A stretch of DNA of 64,000 nucleotides from the NCBI GenBank assembly GCA_900660155.1, contig CABFPE010000017.1, positions 2,031,244 to 2,095,243 of the forward strand, given 5' to 3'. The DNA is from Hofstenia miamia (lineage: Eukaryota > Xenacoelomorpha > Acoela > Hofsteniidae). The notes beneath the pieces are model-generated. The model was given only the letters and a program-made list of their open reading frames with translations. It was not told the DNA's origin and ran no database searches. Each line of letters opens with the position of its first letter. Position 1 is the first letter of the stretch. Of this stretch, positions 6,567 through 45,600 are shown one piece after another. A program made the position numbers and the translations under genes.

Positions 6567-7411
6567 TCGATTTCAATGGATAGGAAGCCTTTTCTCCTAC
6601 TAGGATAAATTTATATTATCATCTGTGATAATTTTATAGTCAATGTATTTATTTCGTAACATCTTTGCATCTACAGCTCATCTATGGTGGAATTCATTAA
6701 AAAAATTATAAATAATGTTTATTGATTTGATACACAATACATAAGATTAAAGCTTTTTAAATGTATGAATATATTGATTTTGAAACCCTCACTGTCTGGA
6801 GTAGCAAATTTGCTACTTTACTTTATATAATGAATTTAGCAGCAGACTAAGATCATTCAAAACGATTGTATTTTTGACTTTACTCCGAGTATGGAATTAT
6901 GTTTTTGTGTTCTTGTTTCTAATTTGAGATATAGTAAAATATTTCCAAAAATGCCGATTTTTGTATTTTTTGAAAAGAAATAAGTGCATTAATAGCAGCC
7001 AAAAATCATATTTAAATTTCGAAGTTGAGTAAATAATAAATGATATGTACTTAGTATGCCATACGCGTAAGTAAGACATTAAATTTTTGTTCAAAATATA
7101 TACAATATTGAAATTACGCATGGATTTAACTGAAATTCCAAATTTGTAACTATGGTAATTACAGAGTTAATGTAGATTCAAACTTAGTGTATTTATATTC
7201 TACAGTATAATGTATACCAATGGTTGAGGCAATAGGTGAAGGATTAGAGCGCTCCCAAATATTGTACTTCCAAAATTAATGAAGCATTTCTTTTTATACA
7301 TGATATTTAATTGGTACAGAGTTGCAAGCGATTATAATTTGTCAAAAACCTAACTGGCTGTTCCTGGATAACGCCAATGTCACTCTACGAAGTCCCATAC
7401 TTACAGATGAT
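6567..7411. repeat. Duplicated block, copy 1 (ends at single N)
   Basis: The sequence from 6567 is found again at 8338, and from 6688 again at 7413 and 8459. Copy 1 differs from the other two at a handful of positions (for example near 6800, 7066, 7106, 7138, 7164 and 7409). Copies 2 and 3 appear identical over their shared length. The block stops at an N at 7412. Near-identical blocks joined by single Ns are best explained as two haplotypes placed in series by the assembler, not a biological tandem repeat. The open frames inside all three copies (minus strand, about 75-94 codons) are low-complexity and not credible genes. Confidence 0.85.
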
Positions 7412-7412
7412 N

Positions 7413-8336
7413 TGGAATTCATTAAAAAAATTATAAATAATGTTTATTGATTTGATACACAATACATAAGATTAAAGCTTTTTAAATGTATGAATATATT
7501 GATTTTGAAACCCTCACTGTTTGGAGTAGCAAATTTGCTACTTTACTTTATATAATGAATTTAGCAGCAGACTAAGATCATTCAAAACGATTGTATTTTT
7601 GACTTTACTCCGAGTATGGAATTATGTTTTTGTGTTCTTGTTTCTAATTTGAGATATAGTAAAATATTTCCAAAAATGCCGATTTTTGTATTTTTTGAAA
7701 AGAAATAAGTGCATTAATAGCAGCCAAAAATCATATTTAAATTTCGAAGTTGAGTAAATAATAAATGATATGTACTTAGTATGCCATACGGGTAAGTAAG
7801 ACATTAAATTTTTGTTCAAAATATATACAACATTGAAATTACGCATGGATTTAACTGAAATTGCAAATTTGTAACTATGGTAATTACAGAGTTCATGTAG
7901 ATTCAAACTTAGTGTATTTATATTCTACAGTATAATGTATACCAATGGTTGAGGCAATAGGTGAAGGATTAGAGCGCTCCCAAATATTGTACTTCCAAAA
8001 TTAATGAAGCATTTCTTTTTATACATGATATTTAATTGGTACAGAGTTGCAAGCGATTATAATTTGTCAAAAACCTAACTGGCTGTTCCTGGATAACGCC
8101 AATGTCACTCTACGAAGTCCCATACTTACAGATCATGTTAAGCAATAGGGTAATTTAAGTTTTTGCCATGTGTACTTTGTGCACGTGGCGACGGTGACTT
8201 TCTCAAAGCGTGTCTTCTTAGTTTGTGGTAGACAGATGGCAGCGCACTAGAAACCCTGACAGCAAGATTACTACTGATTCTTGAGCTATGAGTGCGTCTC
8301 ATAAGATAGTCAGGTTAAAGAAAGCTCGTTGTTCTA
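7413..8336. repeat. Duplicated block, copy 2 (between two single Ns)
   Basis: This starts right after the N at 7412 and ends right before the N at 8337. It aligns with copy 1 at an offset of 725 bases and with copy 3 at an offset of 1046 bases, with no differences noticed against copy 3. Both borders are single-N joins, which supports an assembly origin. Confidence 0.85.
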
Positions 8337-8337
8337 N

Positions 8338-9382
8338 TCGATTTCAATGGATAGGAAGCCTTTTCTCCTACTAGGATAAATTTATATTATCATCTGTGAT
8401 AATTTTATAGTCAATGTATTTATTTCGTAACATCTTTGCATCTACAGCTCATCTATGGTGGAATTCATTAAAAAAATTATAAATAATGTTTATTGATTTG
8501 ATACACAATACATAAGATTAAAGCTTTTTAAATGTATGAATATATTGATTTTGAAACCCTCACTGTTTGGAGTAGCAAATTTGCTACTTTACTTTATATA
8601 ATGAATTTAGCAGCAGACTAAGATCATTCAAAACGATTGTATTTTTGACTTTACTCCGAGTATGGAATTATGTTTTTGTGTTCTTGTTTCTAATTTGAGA
8701 TATAGTAAAATATTTCCAAAAATGCCGATTTTTGTATTTTTTGAAAAGAAATAAGTGCATTAATAGCAGCCAAAAATCATATTTAAATTTCGAAGTTGAG
8801 TAAATAATAAATGATATGTACTTAGTATGCCATACGGGTAAGTAAGACATTAAATTTTTGTTCAAAATATATACAACATTGAAATTACGCATGGATTTAA
8901 CTGAAATTGCAAATTTGTAACTATGGTAATTACAGAGTTCATGTAGATTCAAACTTAGTGTATTTATATTCTACAGTATAATGTATACCAATGGTTGAGG
9001 CAATAGGTGAAGGATTAGAGCGCTCCCAAATATTGTACTTCCAAAATTAATGAAGCATTTCTTTTTATACATGATATTTAATTGGTACAGAGTTGCAAGC
9101 GATTATAATTTGTCAAAAACCTAACTGGCTGTTCCTGGATAACGCCAATGTCACTCTACGAAGTCCCATACTTACAGATCATGTTAAGCAATAGGGTAAT
9201 TTAAGTTTTTGCCATGTGTACTTTGTGCACGTGGCGACGGTGACTTTCTCAAAGCGTGTCTTCTTAGTTTGTGGTAGACAGATGGCAGCGCACTAGAAAC
9301 CCTGACAGCAAGATTACTACTGATTCTTGAGCTATGAGTGCGTCTCATAAGATAGTCAGGTTAAAGAAAGCTCGTTGTTCTA
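8338..9382. repeat. Duplicated block, copy 3 (full length)
   Basis: The longest copy, beginning after the N at 8337. It carries both the left part found only in copy 1 (6567-6687) and the right part found only in copy 2 (about 8137-8336), and then runs into unique sequence. It is probably the intact locus, with copies 1 and 2 as alternative-haplotype or unresolved contig ends. Confidence 0.8.
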
Positions 9383-11257: not shown

Positions 11258-11325
11258 TCACAATTGATCATTTGTACGACTGTGTGGGTGTGTGTGTTTG
11301 TGTGTAAACAGAGCTTTGTAAACAA

Positions 11326-11349
11326 ATGGTAGACACTCGCACAATATGA
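11326..11349 (+). other. Short upstream ORF overlapping the kinase start codon
   Basis: An ATG at 11326 opens MVDTRTI and stops with TGA at 11347-11349. This overlaps the main ATG at 11346 in an ATGA arrangement, in a different frame. If the transcript starts upstream of 11326, ribosomes would meet this ATG first. Such an overlapping upstream ORF commonly damps translation of the main frame. The transcription start is unknown, so its use is inference. Confidence 0.45.
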
Positions 11350-12557
11350 TCTTTTACGAGAATGTAATTAAAAATGCTCTCTGTAATGAAAATGATGAAA
11401 TATTAAACTTGAAAGTCGACGATTGCTGCGATCCTGGAGACCACTATGTCGGTATTTTAAAGCAGATGAGTTTCACATTAAGAGCAAGAAATGAATCCAA
11501 ATTTTTCGATGTGGTGATTAAGTATGGGAAGGATTCAGACAGGAAAGACATGTTTTTCATTAAAGAAATCGACGCATATAATGTAATTTCCACTGATATT
11601 ACCCAATGGCAAAAGGAAACATATGGAACGTTGTTAGTCCCAATGAAGTTTCCTAGAATACTACATGGAAGCATAGAAAAAAAACTATTAATTATGGAAA
11701 ACTTAAAATCGTTGGGATACAAAATGGGTGATAGGGCTAAGGGTCTCAATTTTGAGGAATCAACTTTAGTTATGAAAGCGATTGCCGAGTTTCATGCACT
11801 GTGTAATTTGTATTTAAGTAACATCGATAGAAAGGCATTCTTTGAACGGTATCCATATTTCATTGACAAAGAATTCGAATTTCCACTGACAGATGAAATT
11901 GTCAAGAGTGCAATTTTTGACACTTTAGTACCAATTCTGTCAAAGGCGTATCCAAAAGAAATCCATTTGCTTGAAGATTTTAATTTTGAAAGATTTCAAA
12001 TGGCCTTACCTACAAATGTAAAAAAGCTATGTAGTCCAAACGAACAATTTAATGTGCTTTGTCATGGTGATTTATACACAAATAACATCTTGTTTAAGTA
12101 CGATGAAAGATGTAAACCCACAGATCTAAGATTTATCGATCTCCAAGCTGTAAGACTCTGCACACCTGCTTATGACCTAATTCATTTTTTTTGGCTAAGT
12201 GCGGATTCAAATGTCTTAGCAAATAAGCAAGAAGAACTGTTGGAAATTTATTGGCAGAACTTCATTTCAGTAGCAAAACAGATAAAGTTAGAACATCATT
12301 ACACAATAAATGATTTACAAAATGATGTGAAATTGTTGAATGGACTAGGATTTCAAATAAAGATGAAGACAATTTTGTATTCAACAGCAAGAAAAGAAGA
12401 TGCCTTGTATTTCGACGAGAGTGAAAGTTTAATGACCGAGGCGGCGACTATTAAAATGCAAAGTAAAGGAGTAGAACTGGCTCGATTGGCCGATGATTTT
12501 GTAAAGGAAAAGATTATGGTTGCTTTACGTTATGGAAAGAAATTGCAAATATTTTAG
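11346..12557 (+). CDS. EcKinase-like (CHK kinase-like) protein, 403 aa, single exon
   Basis: A complete intronless gene of the ecdysteroid 22-kinase-like family (EcKinase, related to DUF227/CHK and to choline/aminoglycoside phosphotransferases). These soluble enzymes phosphorylate small alcohols: insect members act on ecdysteroids, and others are implicated in detoxification. Visible landmarks are the N-lobe lysine in VVIKYG (K59), a helix-C type glutamate in FIKEIDAY (E74), a hinge-like LIMENL (115-120), the catalytic loop HGDLYTNNILF (H240, D242, N247), and FIDLQAVR with the metal-binding aspartate D265 followed by Q267, then TPAYDLIHFF. All key residues are present and the length is normal (about 400 aa). 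The start is supported by an in-frame stop at 11319 and A at -3. It may be a live gene or a retrocopy that kept its frame. The substrate cannot be told from sequence. Confidence 0.93.
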   Translation: MIFYENVIKNALCNENDEILNLKVDDCCDPGDHYVGILKQMSFTLRARNESKFFDVVIKYGKDSDRKDMFFIKEIDAYNVISTDITQWQKETYGTLLVPMKFPRILHGSIEKKLLIMENLKSLGYKMGDRAKGLNFEESTLVMKAIAEFHALCNLYLSNIDRKAFFERYPYFIDKEFEFPLTDEIVKSAIFDTLVPILSKAYPKEIHLLEDFNFERFQMALPTNVKKLCSPNEQFNVLCHGDLYTNNILFKYDERCKPTDLRFIDLQAVRLCTPAYDLIHFFWLSADSNVLANKQEELLEIYWQNFISVAKQIKLEHHYTINDLQNDVKLLNGLGFQIKMKTILYSTARKEDALYFDESESLMTEAATIKMQSKGVELARLADDFVKEKIMVALRYGKKLQIF

Positions 12558-21415: not shown

Positions 21416-22012
21416 CAGTGTTGACCATTTAAATAAATCGTTTTAAGAGATTTTAAACGTCGTTTAAATCAGCCGTTTGTCTAAATGCAGCAGTCAATTA
21501 AACGATTTTGTTTAAACGTCGTTTATTTGACATGGTTTATTTAAACGGCAAGTTGAGGGCATCTACAATGTAGTAAACAAGCAATAGATAGCATATTGAA
21601 ACTTAACGGATTGTTATTAATCAATATTTATATGATTAACAATTGGAGAAAAAAGCTAAATCTTATCGTAAATTATGTAAATCTGAATAAATCATATATT
21701 ATTGTCTAGGCATGTTGCAAAACATAGACGGATACTCCTCCTGTAGTAATTCAAACCAATCTTTTAGATGTTCCCGTTTTGTAAGTATATCAAGCGAACA
21801 ACAATGCTGATTTGCAATGTCGTATAGAATACTAGCCTTAACTGGACAATTTTCTAGAAGAAACAGCTTTTAAACTATTTGCTGAAATTACTTAACTTCC
21901 ACTTAGAATAGGTGCAGGATACTTGCTCAGAATGTTGTTTTTCCTAGCTAAGTGCTATAGGTCATTGCCTAAAGACTTCAATAGAATAGAATAGAATAGA
22001 ATTTCTTATTAA

Positions 22013-22969
22013 CACTAGAAGGACCAAAAAATTTACCCCCCACTAAGGACCAACTGGGTCGAAACGACCCATACGCTAAAAAAAGCGAAAAATAGTACAA
22101 AAAGCAAATTGAATTTATACGTTTTTAATTTTACCATAAACAAAAAGCTCAAAATTGATAAAACTGATGAAGAAACACAAAGTTTATGATAGTTTTTAGT
22201 CCCTAATTGTTGGACGAACAGGGTCTGCACAGCTGAACTCGACAATTTTCACATACAACTAGCATATATTTCGACTGCTTTTGTTGTCGCATTTTGCAAC
22301 CGCACATCTTGCTTGTTTTTCCGAGCCCAAGTAACTGAATTGCTAACAATATCATGAAGCATTTTTTCTGTCACCAAACATTTCCAAGCTGACACTTCAT
22401 CTGTTATTTTTTGCCATATAAAATTTTTAGAACCTGGCGGAGTAATTACAACGTTACATGTTGGTGTCCTACTTGCGGACGATGACTTGTTGGAGGTTGT
22501 TAGCAATTCCCATAGTAATCCATTTTTGTCAAGAAAATCAGAATTTGGGTTACCATTTTCTGCTTCTGCTTCTTCTGTATCTTCATCAGACGAGCTGAGA
22601 AGTTGTTCGTCATTCAGAGGAAATACTTCACTTGCTTGTTCTCTATCCTCATTCATCTGGCTGTCGTCAGATTGATATGGATCCAATTCATCATCAGCAA
22701 CATTCCAAATTGTTCTAATAGCATGTAAAGCCGTTTGTCGCTGTGGGCACATGCTTAAACTGCAATATGGGTCAATATGACCCAGTTGGTACTTGAAGGA
22801 TAATGACAGTGTAGCACTTGCAAAAGACGCTTACATTAATATGATTGCTTACACACATATTTGCCTTGGGTAGACAAACAAAGTCAGCTCGTGCCTCCAT
22901 CTAACCACTTCACACCAAGCCATCAAAGTAATAAAGTGGGTCGAAATGACCCAGACGGTCCTTCTAGTG
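22013..22969. mobile_element. piggyBac-type element, internally deleted, TTAA duplication
   Basis: Perfect 13-bp inverted ends, CACTAGAAGGACC at 22013 and GGTCCTTCTAGTG ending at 22969, are each flanked by TTAA (22009-22012 and 22970-22973). Just inside both ends, TGGGTCGAAACGACCCA-like palindromes repeat, as is common in piggyBac subterminal regions. The interior encodes only an acidic N-terminal transposase part on the minus strand. The catalytic core is missing, so this is a non-autonomous derivative. It interrupts the 3' UTR of the LINE on its right. The undisturbed insertion site is present at 23109-23350. Confidence 0.93.
22249..22752 (-). pseudogene. piggyBac transposase N-terminal part (167 aa, truncated)
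   Basis: An ATG-initiated frame (MCPQRQTALHAIRTIW) runs 167 codons. It has an acidic, serine-rich stretch (SSSDEDTEEAEAENG, residues about 53-67), then DKNGLLWELL, PPGSKNFIW and TDEVSAWKCLVTEKMLHDIV with SVTWARKN. This order (acidic leader, NG.W, then the E...F/W.....IV..TN-type helix) matches the N-terminal domain of piggyBac family transposases. It ends before the DDD catalytic core, which is deleted; only about 240 bases remain to the element end. It cannot move itself but could be moved by a full-length relative. Confidence 0.75.
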
Positions 22970-23108
22970 TTAAGTGTAGTACATTGGCATAATTGTACAT
23001 CTCAACAAAAGCTGCTAATGCTACACTTATTGCGTCAATAACAACATAAAATACACAAAACTATAAAAACATAATAACAAAAAACATGGATTCAGAATTA
23101 TCATTTTN

Positions 23109-23350
23109 AGAATAGGTGCAGGATACTTGCTCAGAATGTTGTTTTTCCTAGCTAAGTGCTATAGGTCATTGCCTAAAGACTTCAATAGAATAGAATAGAA
23201 TAGAATTTCTTATTAAGTGTAGTACATTGGCATAATTGTACATCTCAACAAAAGCTGCTAATGCTACACTTATTGCGTCAATAACAACATAAAATACACA
23301 AAACTATAAAAACATAATAACAAAAAACATGGATTCAGAATTATCATTTT
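23109..23350. repeat. Empty-site copy of the piggyBac insertion locus
   Basis: These 242 bases equal 21905-22012 joined directly to 22974-23107, with one TTAA (23213-23216) in place of TTAA-element-TTAA. The copy starts right after the single N at 23108. It is therefore the pre-insertion allele, placed in series with the filled allele by the assembler. It also restores the continuous LINE 3' UTR. Confidence 0.93.
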
Positions 23351-23960: not shown

Positions 23961-24623
23961 TTAAATATTGCAGTATCTGTAATGACTTAATACTTTTGCA
24001 TTGGACAAGTCGACAGAAGCAATTGTGACAAAAAGGTTATTATAAAGATAAGATCTCCATTTTTCAGTAGCGTAAAGTAAGGCATCAGAGATGGAGTGAC
24101 CTTTGCGAAAGCCGAATTGAGTATTCGAAAGAATCGAGTTGCTATAGAGATAAGTGTTAATTTGGTCAAATATTAGTTTTTCGAAAATTTTTGTAAAAGA
24201 CGAGATAATTGATATGGGCGGGTAATTGCAACATCTTAAAGGGATATCTTTTTTATATATGGGAGTAACATTAGCTAATTTTAAAATTGATGGAAAAGTA
24301 TTTAGTTTTATGGAGTGATTGATGATATGACATAACGGCCTAGCGATGAATTTTGCACAATCTTTAATACACCATGCCGGTATTTCGGATGGTCCACTTG
24401 ATTTATTGACCTTTAGCTTAGCTATAGATTTAAAAACTTCATATCGGGTCACAAATCTGAATGAAAAAGAATTTTGGGGAACTTTGTACCCAGATTTTTC
24501 AGGTATAAAGGGCAGCGAAGGTCCCAGATATTTGCCTAGGTTAATGAATTTATCATTGAATTCATTAGCAATATCTTTGGGTTTGGTTAATATTTCTCCA
24601 TTAGTATTTTCAATAAGATGCAA
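23961..24623 (-). pseudogene. LINE reverse transcriptase, N-terminal half (220 aa open)
   Basis: The longest open stretch of the LINE. It holds the fingers region: KLKVNKSSGPSEIPAWCIKD, FPSILKLANVTPIYKKD, CCNYPPISIISSFTKIFEKL and SILSNTQFGFRKGHSISDAL, then ATEKW and SVDLSNA, where intact elements have an FLDLSKAFD-like first catalytic aspartate. In the usual element NYRPIS is expected where NYPPIS appears here. The frame is lost soon after. The palm motif YADD lies further on near 23600 in another frame segment. Not a host gene. Confidence 0.85.
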
Positions 24624-25085
24624 TTGTTGAACACGACCTTTATTCCTATTCAGTGCGTTTTTGATAAAGTCCTATTTTCGTTTAGGGTCATTTATTCTAC
24701 TCAATAGTGATTTCGTGTAGTGGCTTAGTGCTGCTCTCAGTTCAATATTTGATTTATTCCTTGCAATCTTATATAGCCTGTAGTTGTCAACAGTTTTATT
24801 TTGTATGTAGGTTTAGTAAGCCCGAGTTTTGCATTTGACAAGTTTTTTTAGATTGGGAGTTAACCAGGAAGAGCGCGTGATTTGATGAATAGAAATTTCA
24901 TGTTTCGCAAAATTTTCTTAGTTGGGCAATATAAGTTTACATAAGTGGTGAGTGAATGCATAAATGAATTGAACATAAAGTTTATTTAGAAAGACACTAT
25001 TCCAAGATTCATTTTCTAAGCGAGTTCTTAGAATTTTTATTAATGCTGGGTCTCTTTCACGAATCTCTACCCAAGTTCTTTTGTT

Positions 25086-25313
25086 TGTATTCTCCATATT
25101 GATCAATGAAAAGCAAGTAATGATACAATGATCAGAATAGGGACATTCACTGCAGGCATACTTGTAATACTACATTTTCAACGAGAAAGTAATCAATTAA
25201 TGTTGAAGATTTGTTATTTAGTCTTGTCGGTATATTGGAATTAATTGTGTTAGGATCAACAGCATCTAGTAAATAATTTATCTTTTTCAGCATTCTTCAA
25301 ATAGTTGATATTC
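25086..25313. repeat. 228-bp direct duplication within the LINE, copy 1
   Basis: Identical as far as I can read to 25394-25621, at an offset of 308 bases. It covers the end of the endonuclease domain. The 80 bases between the copies (25314-25393) are not LINE-like. No N marks the join. Confidence 0.9.
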
Positions 25314-25393: not shown

Positions 25394-25621
25394 TGTATTC
25401 TCCATATTGATCAATGAAAAGCAAGTAATGATACAATGATCAGAATAGGGACATTCACTGCAGGCATACTTGTAATACTACATTTTCAACGAGAAAGTAA
25501 TCAATTAATGTTGAAGATTTGTTATTTAGTCTTGTCGGTATATTGGAATTAATTGTGTTAGGATCAACAGCATCTAGTAAATAATTTATCTTTTTCAGCA
25601 TTCTTCAAATAGTTGATATTC
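25394..25621. repeat. 228-bp direct duplication within the LINE, copy 2
   Basis: Second copy of 25086-25313. On the minus strand the LINE frame continues from sequence above 25621 into this copy, and from copy 1 into the sequence below 25086. One copy plus the 80-base spacer is therefore the inserted or mis-assembled part. Confidence 0.9.
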
Positions 25622-25756: not shown

Positions 25757-26488
25757 TCATGTTTTTTTGCGGAATGCATATTTCGATCCACAGACTCTCA
25801 AAATTCTCATCAATCTTAAATCGGGTCGATTTCTGGGCTTAAAGTGTTTTATAATTAACAACATCACTCCACCTCCTTTAGAATTATTGGTAAGATTTAG
25901 ATGTCTGTCACAAAGAAATAATTCATAGCCATTAGGTTTCCAAGTGATGTCCGAGTCTATGTCAGTTAGCCAGGTTTTAGAGATCCCTAAGATTGAGTTT
26001 TTCCCAATTTGGTATACTAGTTCATTGTATGAAGATAGTTTATTAGTTAGATTTTGGATGTTGAGATGAACATATTTAATTGGAGCAGTAGATAAACTCA
26101 TCATGCTACAATAATCGCTGTATTTGTAAATCTTGGGCATATTCGGCCCGGGATTTGGCGCAATACCTTCTTGGAGTAAAATAAGAAAAATTTGTGCACC
26201 TAATATACTAGAATATGTTGTGATCACGTAAACTACTGTAAATGAGAGAAGAATTAAATGGGCAGCTTTTCTATGAAATGTTAAATTGCTTGGACTTTTA
26301 CCTATAAGATATCCTTGAATAGTTGCATTTTGGCAAAGATTACTTAAGTATAGACAACTGAATAATAATAATATTTTGAATCCATTACGTATCGAAATAG
26401 TACTAATAGATAATGCTCGCAATAAACTTGGTATTGCTAGTACAAAGTTTGTCAATAATGTGAAAAGGTTAAAGAACATACGTACCAT
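25757..26488 (-). pseudogene. LINE ORF2 amino end: hydrophobic leader, NPGP motif, endonuclease start
   Basis: An open frame of 243 codons. Residues 1-20 and about 78-106 are strongly hydrophobic (LTNFVLAIPSLL; HLILLSFTVVYVITTYSSIL). They are followed by LLQEGIAPNPGP (residues 104-115), which ends in the NPGP of 2A-like ribosome-skipping peptides but lacks the usual D-V/I-E. From about 137 the endonuclease begins: KYVHLNIQNLTNKLSSYNEL, GISKTWLTDIDSD, NGYELFLCDRHL and SKGGGVMLLI. The endonuclease glutamate usually seen in ETWL is lysine here. The frame ends before the rest of the domain. Confidence 0.8.
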
Positions 26489-26743
26489 GATTAAAAAAGT
26501 TTATAAAAGTTCTTATCTAGTAGAAACAAGATTTCAATGGATACTATCAAAATAAATTTACGTTGGAATCAAACGTTAGATAAACAGACGATAGATTAAT
26601 TGATTTGAATTTGGCTGCTTTTTGCATAAGTCATAGTTTGAATGCAGTCTGTCTATTCAAATTAGTTTAAGGTATCGTTTAATTGAAACGTCATAGTTTA
26701 ATTTAATTTAAACAGTTTAATTTTATTTAAATGGTCAACACTG

Positions 26744-33700: not shown

Positions 33701-36700
33701 CCCCTCAGAAAAATAATTTGGTGTATTTTTAAATATAGCTACTTTGTTAAAGTTCGTAGGCTGCCAGATTGAAAAACAATAAAAGCGGCCGCCGAAATGT
33801 AAGTAGATATCACATGGGAAGTAAATTTATCAAGGAAACATGCATAAAACATATATACGATTATTATTCCCTTGTAGGTAACCACAAGGCGCGTATTAAA
33901 TGGGAAGCAAATGTCAATAAAGAATAGTTTGCCTACGAGAGAATGTATGTTCTTTTGACAGCAAATATAAGCACATTTATTTATTAGTCAATCGTAGAGC
34001 ATTGTCTAAACAGTTAAGAGCTAGACAAACACCAACATTCATGAGGCATATAAATCCGCAAAAACCCCTCTAAGATTACACATTTTAAGTTTATATCGTT
34101 TATTCCTCTCGTAAATATACCTTTGTGATCCCCAATCATAACGAGTACAGTCAAGAAGAGTCCCAACATAGCTTTTCCCTTTCCAAGTAATGTTGACAAC
34201 CAGAACACCTAAATATAGCCAAATATAAAATTAGTAAATAGAAGATATCAATTTCACCCATGGGAAAATAGCATTGGAGGATTTAAGACTTGCGATTTAT
34301 ACATTATTTTAGAAAACTAAACATATAGTCATGTACGATCATTAATCTAATTATCATCCATGTATTAATAAATACTTTTGAAACATGAACAAAATTAAAG
34401 GAAGAAATAACTGCGTAATAAACCCGTATTTTTTAAAGTATAAATAACTTATTTGACTGTAAATGTTATCACAGATTTAGGTTGAACGCGATTAGGCCGA
34501 TAGCACATGTTTGTATAGAATTGATTACATTTAGTGTTGTTTACACAATCAACTTGTTAGGAAATTTAGCAACAAAGATTTATAACCACGCAGTACGCAC
34601 CAATTACTTCAACCCCTTCTAAATTCTACACCAGACGTTAAACAGCGGGACGATATTTACATTTAGACCTTTTAAGTAGAGCATTAAAGTTGATGTACAC
34701 TTGAGCAACTCCCATACACACATATAATCAAATTACTACGTTAAATAAAATTTGTTTAACGGAACTATTCTAACCAAATGCGCTTTCTCACCCGTAAATG
34801 GTAGTGAGGCATTGACTATACATCACAAATTTCGCTTTATAAAGGCGTCCCTTAAAACCACTTTACATATAAATTTGCCGCAAAGGCGTGAGAAGTAAAA
34901 AACTTTTGAAAATGATTGCGAGGTTAGGACTGATACATGAACCTACGTGCAATTATGGACAACTATATACATGATGTTATAGAATATTGTGCAATACACT
35001 TTTTTATAAGAATTATTTTTACAGTAATCAAGGCTCAACCTTAAGATATATTTAAGAATCACCTATTTTAACGATCAAATATAATTCTAACGTTCAAAAG
35101 TATGCATTCATTATTTGAAAGGTAAAGATAATGCATCATTAGGCCAGGAAATTGTTTAAGTTTTGTGAATGAAAATTTTGACCTTTCAAATAATGGCACC
35201 GCAAATTAGCTATTATGAATATTATTTACCCTGAAGAAATTTAAGACTCATTTAAGAATATTTTCGGCTCCTAGTCACTGAATCATTAAGGCTTGGCTCG
35301 ATTTATATAATCTCATAAAAAGAGTGTATTAGTTATTATTATTAGTTATATTATGTGGCTTAGTTAAAATTCAAAACACTACAAAAAATTATTGAGGTAC
35401 ACACTCACAAATTGGAATTTTTGAAAAGCTTAATGAAATTCTTACATACAATTTCTAAGAAAATTAAAGTTAAGAATCTAAGAAATGATTAGCTGCAAAT
35501 CCTAAACATCTTAACATTAAACAGCCTGGGAATTTTTGAAAATTTTTCATGATCCTATAAAAATTTTTTAAACGCTTATAGCTCAAAAACTATTAAGGGT
35601 GTGCTCAATCTGAAAGCATTACATGATAGAGGAGAGTCGCTTCTTTTTTTCGTTCAAAATCCGCGAGCTGGCTCAGTTTTACCGGGAGGTGCCCTTGCGC
35701 TAAGCCTCCGGTCGCAGGGCCCTTCGGAGTAACGTCCTCCGACTTTGCGCACGACACGCCTCTATGTTTGGAATATCTTTGCACATATCAGGAAACAGCC
35801 AAAGTTCGTCCATTGGCTCAAAACCTTTTAAATACACGAACACTAAGTATAGAGAGAATTTAAATCTTTTTCAAATATTTGAAATTTTCAAAGAAAACTT
35901 GTTAATCTTTTCAACAACCTCTGCCTGCCACAGCAATACGATTTAACAGAATTTTCAACAATGCATTAAATTATGATGCCCAATAGACCTACCCATGGCC
36001 CAAGATTTTCAAATTTGGAAATTCTTTGTAAATATGGAAAAACGGTTTGGAAATTCTTTATAAAGATGGAAAGACATTTTGTCCTTTAAAAAGGACGCCA
36101 GGCTGTTTAAGGTTAAACCAATAAGATCAATTTATTACTAGTTATAGATATAACATTCCTAAGCAATACATGATGAATGATTTGATATTTCTGCGAATGA
36201 ACTGCCTTTTTATATGTCAATTACTTTTAGTTTGCGATGTTTATAAAACGTGAGATTTCCGTGTGGAAATGAAATGGTAAATTTAAAAGCTTTAACTCTA
36301 AAAAGTAGTAAACTGGAAATATGAGAAAATGGAGGGAAAGTATAAAAGAAAGACGTGATGCATGACTGTTGTCATGAAAAATATGGAGGTTAGATTAATA
36401 GCCTCGTAAATGATCACATTACTCTTCAATTGTCACTGAAAGTTGAACAAGACAAAATGTAAATTGAAATTATTGCTAATTTCCATTTTAGCAATCCAGC
36501 ATGTTGTATAATTATTTTCCAATGTTTGGTTCCATTAACAAAATGAATGTGGCTTCCAATTTGACAAAGACACGTATTGATAGCGTGACATTATGGTGAC
36601 GCATTTACTTAAATTGAATAAATAATTAATTAGACATCGCTAAAAGTATCTATTATTTTATAATCAAATTTAAACAATGTATTTACAATTTCTAAAAAAG

Positions 36701-42600: not shown

Positions 42601-45600
42601 ATATTGATCTCTAACAAAAAATCTGTGCGATAATAGGTGTTAGAAACCAGAAACTAAATTGCGGTTGATGACCAGGTGGCGGAAGAACATGTATTTTAAT
42701 AACGTAAATTCTTTATTAATTTAATTCTCTTAGAGCAACTCTCACACTCAACTTGAACTCACTGGAATGATATTGAAAATGTATTTGTAAAATCTATAAA
42801 TAATAATGGTGACAAGGAGAGAAAGAGAAATATAAATTAGCCTCATACGCGGAGTTAGTTTAATATGTATATAATTTACGACATGGGATTGCAAAAATCC
42901 AATTTAAAAGTAGATTGAGAGAAACAACAGCTGTGAATTTCTAATAGGGAAATTGCCGTAGTTTCCGTTCTTTCAGTCGCAAGTACATTTACTTTAATCA
43001 ATATTTTGAATTAACAACTGCTCATCGCGGTTAGGAGGAAGTTTAGATCGCTTCAACACCATTCTCAACAGACAAGGGTGTTGATGTCATACATAACATT
43101 TTTTAAAGAATTCGTCTGTGCAACATATGCGAATGTAACATTGAATCGAATAGACAGGGAATAAAATAGAGATATAGTTTATGATTCTTTTACTAATGTA
43201 AAAAAGCCTGAAATTAATCTCTTCTTCATACAAATAAATTTTAGGTTTAATATGTTATATAGTTCAATGCCGATAATTCTATAGCCTTGATAACTCCGAA
43301 CCCCCAAGAACCCGAGCAAACAAAGCTAATGCATTAGCTGAAGGAAATGACAAATTATATATTAGGGTCAATGAGTGACAGAGCCGCACATTATCGCGGC
43401 AAAAATGATTTAAGTCATAAATGTTTGCTTTGAGAAAAATAATATGTATTTAAAATAGCAAAACCCAGTTTAAAATAAGATAGTTCTTTGAATACTTATC
43501 TAATTTGGTTGAATTCCTATAGTATTTTGATGATATATATTTGCTTAATCAGTGAAAATTTGGCCAGCTTTTCAAAATTTTCGACTTAAATGACATTTGC
43601 ACTGCCGTGAAGATATTACAATTTTGTGTGTTGAGGTGTAAAAGAGATTGGGTGGGGATCAAGTCAATGCCAAACAGAAATCTGATTTGGACCGCTAGGC
43701 ATTTTTCCTTAATATTTTCTTTGCAGTTCTCTCTTCCAATAGCGAATCTTCCTTTTAATTAACATATTTAAATGGTACCATATTACATTGCATTGTTAGA
43801 AAACCGAAAGGAAACGAATATGGATTTCCTCGGCATTCGGTTTTCTCGTTCTCAATTCGTAATGAGAATAACACCTTTTTCAAATTTTTATTTCTCATTA
43901 AAGTTTCTAAGCAAGTCCAATGTAATTTTTAAATAGCAAACCGTATAATATTTCGAAGCTGTTTCAACAGCATTAGTATTTACGAAATACACATTTAGTC
44001 GTATTCTGATCTCTGCGTTGATTGGACGAAATTGCTGAATTTCCATTAAATATGTTAATCAAGCATTTAACAGAAGAAAAAGAAGAGCGTTTTAGCAAAA
44101 TGTCAAAACATATTTCAAGAAAAACAGAAACATGCAGACGAATTAAGTTCTAGTTTCTGCTTAGATCAATTCAATTACAGCAATTAATTAAATGTCATGC
44201 TTTTTGTATGCTTTCAAAGGAAATTTTGATATTGAGCTGGAGAGGCCGTAAATACCTTTAAAATTTTCTTCCTCAAATTGACAAAAATTCTAAACTTCCT
44301 ACCTTGCACGTGTGCTTAGACATGGACGCCTCGATAATTAGCTTAGATCTCGATCTCGATTGTCCGCTGCGCTCAAAATGAAAACCATGTAATAATAGCA
44401 ATTAAGATAATTTGACAGGAGAACATCTAATAAACGTAATCATTACGCATATCACCTTTCACAGTATGTTGCCATCGTAGATCTATTAAGTACCGGCACG
44501 TGTAGAGCTAGTTAAATGAGTACTCAAGTGTCAACTCATCTAGAACGCAAACAAGATTGGGCCATTGAGTTAATAGAAATATAGAGATTAACTCGGTGGT
44601 AAATTCAGGCTAGGAAACTTAACCACAGAACAATTTGATTTAAATAAGAAATCATTGAAGGCTTTTATATACAATTCAAGGTTTTGTATTAATTTGTATC
44701 ATTTACATTGCCTCGCCTGATGCATTCAAAGTTGAACGTTAGTAAGGTAGAAAAGATTTAGCATCATTATTCTTGGAAAAAATACATAACAAATATGTCA
44801 TAATTTAAACACTCATTTTATCAAAATTCTTTGTATAAGAACTACAAGGATCAAAGTGCTCAAAATTTAAGAAATATTTAAGAATTAACCCGAGGCTTAA
44901 AATATTAATTCAGATATTTATGGAAATCAAATATACCGGGACATTGGTAATTTTGTGTTTTTTATACTAATAATAATATTTTTCTATTTTTTGACCCATT
45001 CTAACATTCAAATGTAATTCAAACGTTCAATAGCATGCATTCATTAAGGAAATTTTTTAAACAATACTGCCTCTTAAGTTTTGTGTGAATGGAAATTTTG
45101 ACCTTTTCAATAAAGGTGCCTCCAATTAGCTATTATAAATATTATTTGACCTGCAGAAATTTAAGAACCATGTAAGAATATCTTCGGCTCATGTTGACTG
45201 AATCGTTAAGAATCATTAAGGCTTGGCTTGATTTATGTAATTCTTATAAAAAAAGTACGTGTAATTGTGAATAATCTCATATTGCAACATCGAATGTGAA
45301 ATGAACGATAGCTTTACATTCAGTGCTTACTTCCAACATGTCAACAAATTAAAATATTAATTCTAAACGTTCCTTAAAGTTTCTTATGTATTCAATGGAT
45401 TCTATCAATGCAGTGGTGAAACGTCACGTCAGCGCAGTGATGATTGAGATCATTCTTATGGTATTGCAAGCGATCCCAACAATACTTTAGCGATGACTTA
45501 TAGATTTTGCTCAACACTTTCTGTAAGATTGAGACATAATTCCCTTAACGATAGATATTAGTTACGGGAACACTCAATGCTGAAGTTTATCTCAAGTTCA

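Follow-up and report, generated by a model that had tools for sequence, protein, structure and literature searches.

The piggyBac element of Trichoplusia ni carries 13-bp terminal and 19-bp sub-terminal repeats, separated by a spacer of 3 bp at the 5′ end and of 31 bp at the 3′ end, and its transposase comprises 594 amino acids (PMC2532691). A dimer of the zinc-finger domain (CRD) of this transposase binds a palindrome at bp 17-33, and bp 34-63 of RE are nearly identical to bp 7-35 of LE (PMC7351741). Excision of piggyBac is traceless and restores a single TTAA (PMC7351741, PMC2874221). Deletion derivatives of such elements are exemplified by mPok of Daphnia, which measures roughly 750 bp and is thought to be mobilised in trans by full-length relatives (PMC3849761). 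On the side of genome assembly, heterozygous regions that were assembled twice are known by the signatures of 'duplicated overlapping' and 'duplicated contained' contigs (PMC2864568), and overlapping contigs are reported as negative gaps by ALLPATHS-LG, for one (PMC5368935).

Here we analysed a 64-kb stretch of DNA, referred to throughout as the window, and found in it a site that very probably represents two allelic states, with and without a 957-bp piggyBac internal-deletion derivative, in the sequenced individual or pool. The site is laid out as follows.

21905-22012, plus strand: left flank of the presumed filled allele, TTAA included, equal to 23109-23216
22009-22012, no strand: left TTAA target-site copy, recognised by its sequence
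22013-22969, minus strand: putative non-autonomous piggyBac-type element of 957 bp with 13-bp terminal inverted repeats (TIRs), TTAA, palindromic subterminal repeats and ORF remnants
22970-22973, no strand: right TTAA target-site copy, recognised by its sequence
22970-23107, plus strand: right flank of the presumed filled allele, TTAA included, equal to 23213-23350 and stopping at the contig end
23108, no strand: single N, probable join of two overlapping contigs, abutted exactly by the copy boundaries, with 7412 and 8337 alike
23109-23350, plus strand: presumed empty allele by flank identity, with both flanks, one TTAA and no element

Sequence comparison within the window showed that 21905-22012 and 23109-23216 are identical at 108/108 positions and that 22970-23107 and 23213-23350 are identical at 138/138. 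The element-free copy is thus composed of 108 and 138 nucleotides that have one TTAA in common, 242 nucleotides in total, and its single TTAA (23213-23216) stands against the two, 22009-22012 and 22970-22973, that border the element in the filled copy. Both copies abut the N to the base, the filled one ending at 23107 and the empty one starting at 23109. The original prediction, which had described a TTAA-flanked element of 957 bp followed, after the N, by an exact element-free repeat of its flanks, and had taken these for one site with and without the element, was borne out in both respects, the flanks being free of mismatches and the empty copy having one TTAA.

The ends of the element are organized in a piggyBac-like manner. 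Since the transposase remnant lies on the minus strand, the right end in the window corresponds to the transposase-5′ end.

22013-22025, plus strand: 13-bp TIR CACTAGAAGGACC at the transposase-3′ end, identical throughout to 22957-22969 read on the opposite strand
22957-22969, minus strand: 13-bp TIR at the transposase-5′ end, an inverted-repeat match
22937-22963, minus strand: putative transposase-binding site, AAGGACC followed by GTC and the palindrome TGGGTCATTTCGACCCA, which occupies bp 17-33 as counted from the tip
22045-22071, plus strand: putative transposase-binding site, AAGGACC followed by AAC and the palindrome TGGGTCGAAACGACCCA, at bp 33-59 of the transposase-3′ end
22768-22794, minus strand: third, internal putative bipartite site, AAGTACC followed by AAC and TGGGTCATATTGACCCA, with the ORF's first ATG some 16 bp downstream

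With the TTAA counted, the perfect inverted repeat amounts to 17 nucleotides, hence TIRs of 13 bp. Among the 871 TTAAs of the window, this element's pair is the only TTAA-anchored perfect 17-nt inverted pair at a distance of 200-3000 bp, which argues against a chance origin; with shorter arms, 26 TTAA-anchored pairs were found at 10 nt and one, again this element, at 14 nt. The transposase-5′ tip reads CACTAGAAGGACC-GTC-TGGGTCATTTCGACCCA, that is, TIR, 3-bp spacer and palindrome, while at the transposase-3′ end the TIR is followed by 29 bp and then by TGGGTCGAAACGACCCA at bp 43-59, with a second AAGGACC at bp 33-39 ahead of it, so the subterminal palindromes are placed asymmetrically. Palindromes of the form GGGTC-N(3-7)-GACCC occur three times in the 64 kb, all within the element, of which the window holds one copy, and shuffled windows contained no comparable bipartite site. 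Together, the TTAA, the TIRs and the piggyBac-like positions of the palindromes uphold the assignment of the element to the piggyBac type.

The coding content of the element is reduced to two remnants, and its longest open stretch, on the minus strand, has 193 codons.

22249-22752, minus strand: ORF remnant of 167 amino acids from the first ATG (22752), acidic, N-terminal transposase-like, ending out of frame
22203-22330 (start approximate), minus strand: putative remnant of a C-terminal cysteine-rich zinc finger (CRD), by its cysteine pattern and its resemblance to zf-Tnp_2

The CRD remnant lies in another frame than the N-terminal ORF and also contains a frame change within itself. When joined across this frame change, it matched Pfam zf-Tnp_2 (PF13842) at E 4e-4 to 8e-4 and 20-21 bits, the cut-off being 24, and gave no match in PDB; the zinc-finger frame alone yielded nothing convincing in Pfam and PDB. 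The N-terminal ORF had no match in Pfam, nothing in PDB and no protein relatives in viral and prokaryote contigs, a collection with few or no animal genomes, which fits the extreme divergence of N-terminal piggyBac domains, which in beetles share no more than 12% identity from clade to clade (PMC12732532). A piggyBac catalytic domain was not matched by Pfam in the element, and an autonomous element is excluded by this result together with the length of 957 bp and the 193-codon maximum, which sustain the earlier statement that the catalytic core is lacking. Because 957 bp is too short for a transposase of about 594 amino acids, the element is, as judged from its sequence, an internal-deletion, non-autonomous piggyBac derivative without room for the catalytic domain, and a deletion derivative fits all three observations. 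The internal site at 22768-22794 lies directly upstream of the ORF and could be operator-like, serving self-regulation. A repressor made of the N-terminal and zinc-finger domains was ruled out, as the two do not share a reading frame, and we consider it barely credible that the 167-aa product and the site 16 bp upstream form a self-regulating or dominant-negative part of an active piggyBac family with the element still moving.

Relatives of the element were sought in collections of viral and prokaryote sequence, where animal genomes are few or absent. The exact TIR had two 17-nt matches in viral contigs, with neither a second end nor a palindrome, and these were judged to be due to chance, as was the one match of the bipartite motif in prokaryote genomes, located in an actinobacterial contig of 73% GC without TIRs; viral contigs contained no bipartite motif. 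The TIR sequence was not found in published papers.

Besides 23108, the window contains three more single Ns, at positions 7412, 8337 and 58033. At two of these the sequence is repeated in a similar manner: 6567-7411 and 8338-9182 are identical at 839/845 positions with their boundaries at single Ns, 6688-7411 and 7413-8136 are identical at 718/724 with the boundary at N 7412, and the whole of 7413-8336 is contained in 8459-9382 at 924/924 with the boundary at an N. These arrangements correspond to the two signatures, overlapping and contained duplicates, known from haplotype mis-assembly (PMC2864568). Thus, an alignment between adjacent contig ends with its boundary at the gap was found at Ns 7412, 8337 and 23108, while there is no duplication across N 58033, so a lone N is not invariably a contig overlap. 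A lone N in this window would usually mark contigs laid end to end, and we infer that it may be this assembler's notation for a negative gap. The region 6567-9382 consists of three overlapping contig copies that are 99.2-100% identical, with the single Ns 7412 and 8337 between them; it is likely a haplotype duplication in the assembly, and gene models or copy counts would be inflated there.

Elsewhere the window, which has a GC content of 31%, contains an intact ORF of 411 amino acids at 11322-12557 with a match to the ecdysteroid kinase-like family (Pfam EcKL, E 1e-50), and a non-LTR retrotransposon ORF at 23961-24671 with a probable second one at 25757-26500. The EcKL match, the non-LTR retrotransposon remnants and the GC content would suggest an arthropod, perhaps an insect, as the source. 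Within the retrotransposon region there is an exact 228-bp direct repeat, 25086-25313 and 25394-25621, whose copies lie 308 bp apart and which may be a genuine partial tandem duplication or may stem from an overlap that was closed during gap filling. A dispersed repeat of about 265 bp, an unclassified interspersed repeat, was seen at 35061-35325 and 44994-45256, 73% identical and on the same strand. Scanning the window for Rfam families and for tRNAs gave nothing.

How the two copies came to stand side by side is best read as a product of the assembly and not as a real tandem repeat, since their boundaries abut N 23108 just as the copies at Ns 7412 and 8337 do, a pattern that agrees with the original prediction in favouring juxtaposition over a true tandem. 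The assembler would have made one contig per allelic state, the filled contig stopping 138 bp beyond the element and the empty contig starting 108 bp ahead of the element site, and the scaffolder, having met their overlap as a negative gap, would have set them one after the other with a single N in between. The scaffold as written does carry both copies in tandem, and the exact 228-bp repeat nearby has no N between its copies; however, had the 242-bp target really been duplicated in tandem, with the element then inserted in or lost from one copy, the duplication would have to be very young to show no difference in 242 bp and yet end exactly at a gap, its boundaries matching the N, and with it the contig ends, to the base as at 7412 and 8337, and we regard this as very unlikely. 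Much the same small probability is assigned to the proposal that the contigs stem from different loci bearing paralogous copies of the flanks and were misjoined by the scaffolder: the overlap is short, 242 bp, and the neighbourhood is rich in transposable elements such as the non-LTR retrotransposon, but both flanks are without a single difference over these 242 bp, and linking data put the contigs adjacent, as alleles would be.

If the two copies are alleles of one site, as we favour, the site would be heterozygous, and the empty state may be ancestral or may have arisen by excision, both being possible because piggyBac excision leaves no trace. That the empty copy arose by excision, whether in the germline or somatically in part of the cells in the sequenced tissue, and is not the ancestral allele, is a variant of the preferred explanation which we hold to be unlikely, if less so than a tandem duplication or a misjoin. 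Seamless excision restores just such a single TTAA, and sequence alone has no power to separate the two directions; against this variant, excision needs a transposase active on this copy, it is simpler to assume an ordinary polymorphic insertion, and a rare somatic excision would hardly be deep enough for its own contig. Accordingly, the designation of the empty copy as the pre-insertion site stands as the likelier reading and not as a proven one, as seamless excision gives the same single TTAA. By analogy with the known family, the element, which is itself without a transposase, would have been mobilised in trans by a full-length relative, the core of which would bind the 13-bp tips and its C-terminal zinc-finger dimer the asymmetrically placed palindromes; this transposase would cut at the TTAA with hairpin formation and reinsert the element at another TTAA, and the donor site would be resealed to a single TTAA.

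The age of the polymorphism was estimated with an assumed, insect-like mutation rate of 2.9e-9 per site and generation. Taken as allelic, the 6/845 differences at the neighbouring overlap mean a heterozygosity of about 0.7%, and at this level zero differences in 242 bp have a probability of 0.18, so the identity of the flanks carries little information about age. At the assumed rate, the 6/845 differences, if allelic, would put about 1.2 million generations between the alleles; judged by the flanks, with 0/242 differences, the separation could reach about 2.1 million. Of the original claim that the element moved recently, the polymorphism of the insertion is likely to hold, but its age has no tighter limit than the time at which the two alleles coalesce, which may lie some 1.2 million generations back, and the insertion need not be very recent. 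Similarly, the claimed active relative is supported to the extent that movement would have required a source of transposase at that time, whereas an active relative today is not implied.

As a single locus, the site confirms known biology, an ordinary variable insertion combined with a common assembly artefact. Should the species harbour a full-length partner whose ends match, this would join the candidates for naturally active piggyBac systems, and the ends (CACTAGAAGGACC beside a TTAA, combined with TGGGTCNNNNNGACCCA) suffice as a query for such a partner. Moreover, lone Ns flanked by overlapping copies may offer a cheap route to polymorphic transposon insertions in draft assemblies.

Compared with described systems, the element resembles piggyBac (IFP2) of T. 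ni in its TTAA target and 13-bp TIRs (PMC2532691, PMC7351741), in the palindrome at bp 17-33 that follows a 3-bp spacer at the transposase-5′ end, with a second copy deeper at the other end, and in that the short-spacer end is the transposase-5′ end in both. It differs in length, 957 bp without a catalytic domain against 2.4 kb, in the longer spacer, 29 bp as counted to the 17-bp palindrome core against 31 bp, in the letters of the palindrome and TIR, and in a third bipartite site just upstream of the ORF; T. ni piggyBac has a single ORF with a C-terminal cysteine-rich zinc finger, to which the remnants here, with their sub-threshold zinc-finger match, would correspond. Like the Pokey derivatives mPok, it is apparently non-autonomous, keeps piggyBac ends and occupies a TTAA site (PMC3849761), but mPok forms a multi-copy family whose autonomous parents are known and whose centre is unrelated to Pokey, while of this element one copy and no parent is known and the centre still contains transposase remnants. 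With piggyBat of Myotis lucifugus it shares repeated bipartite sites, each made of a core motif, 3 bp and a palindrome, and one end of piggyBat has three of them (PMC11707139); the right end of piggyBat has no palindrome, whereas the element has one there and two on the transposase-5′ side, and the motif sequences are unrelated. Finally, as in haplotype mis-assembly contigs (PMC2864568), two versions of what appears to be a heterozygous region stand side by side with the copy ends being contig ends, the difference being that at 23108 the allelic difference would be a complete transposon.
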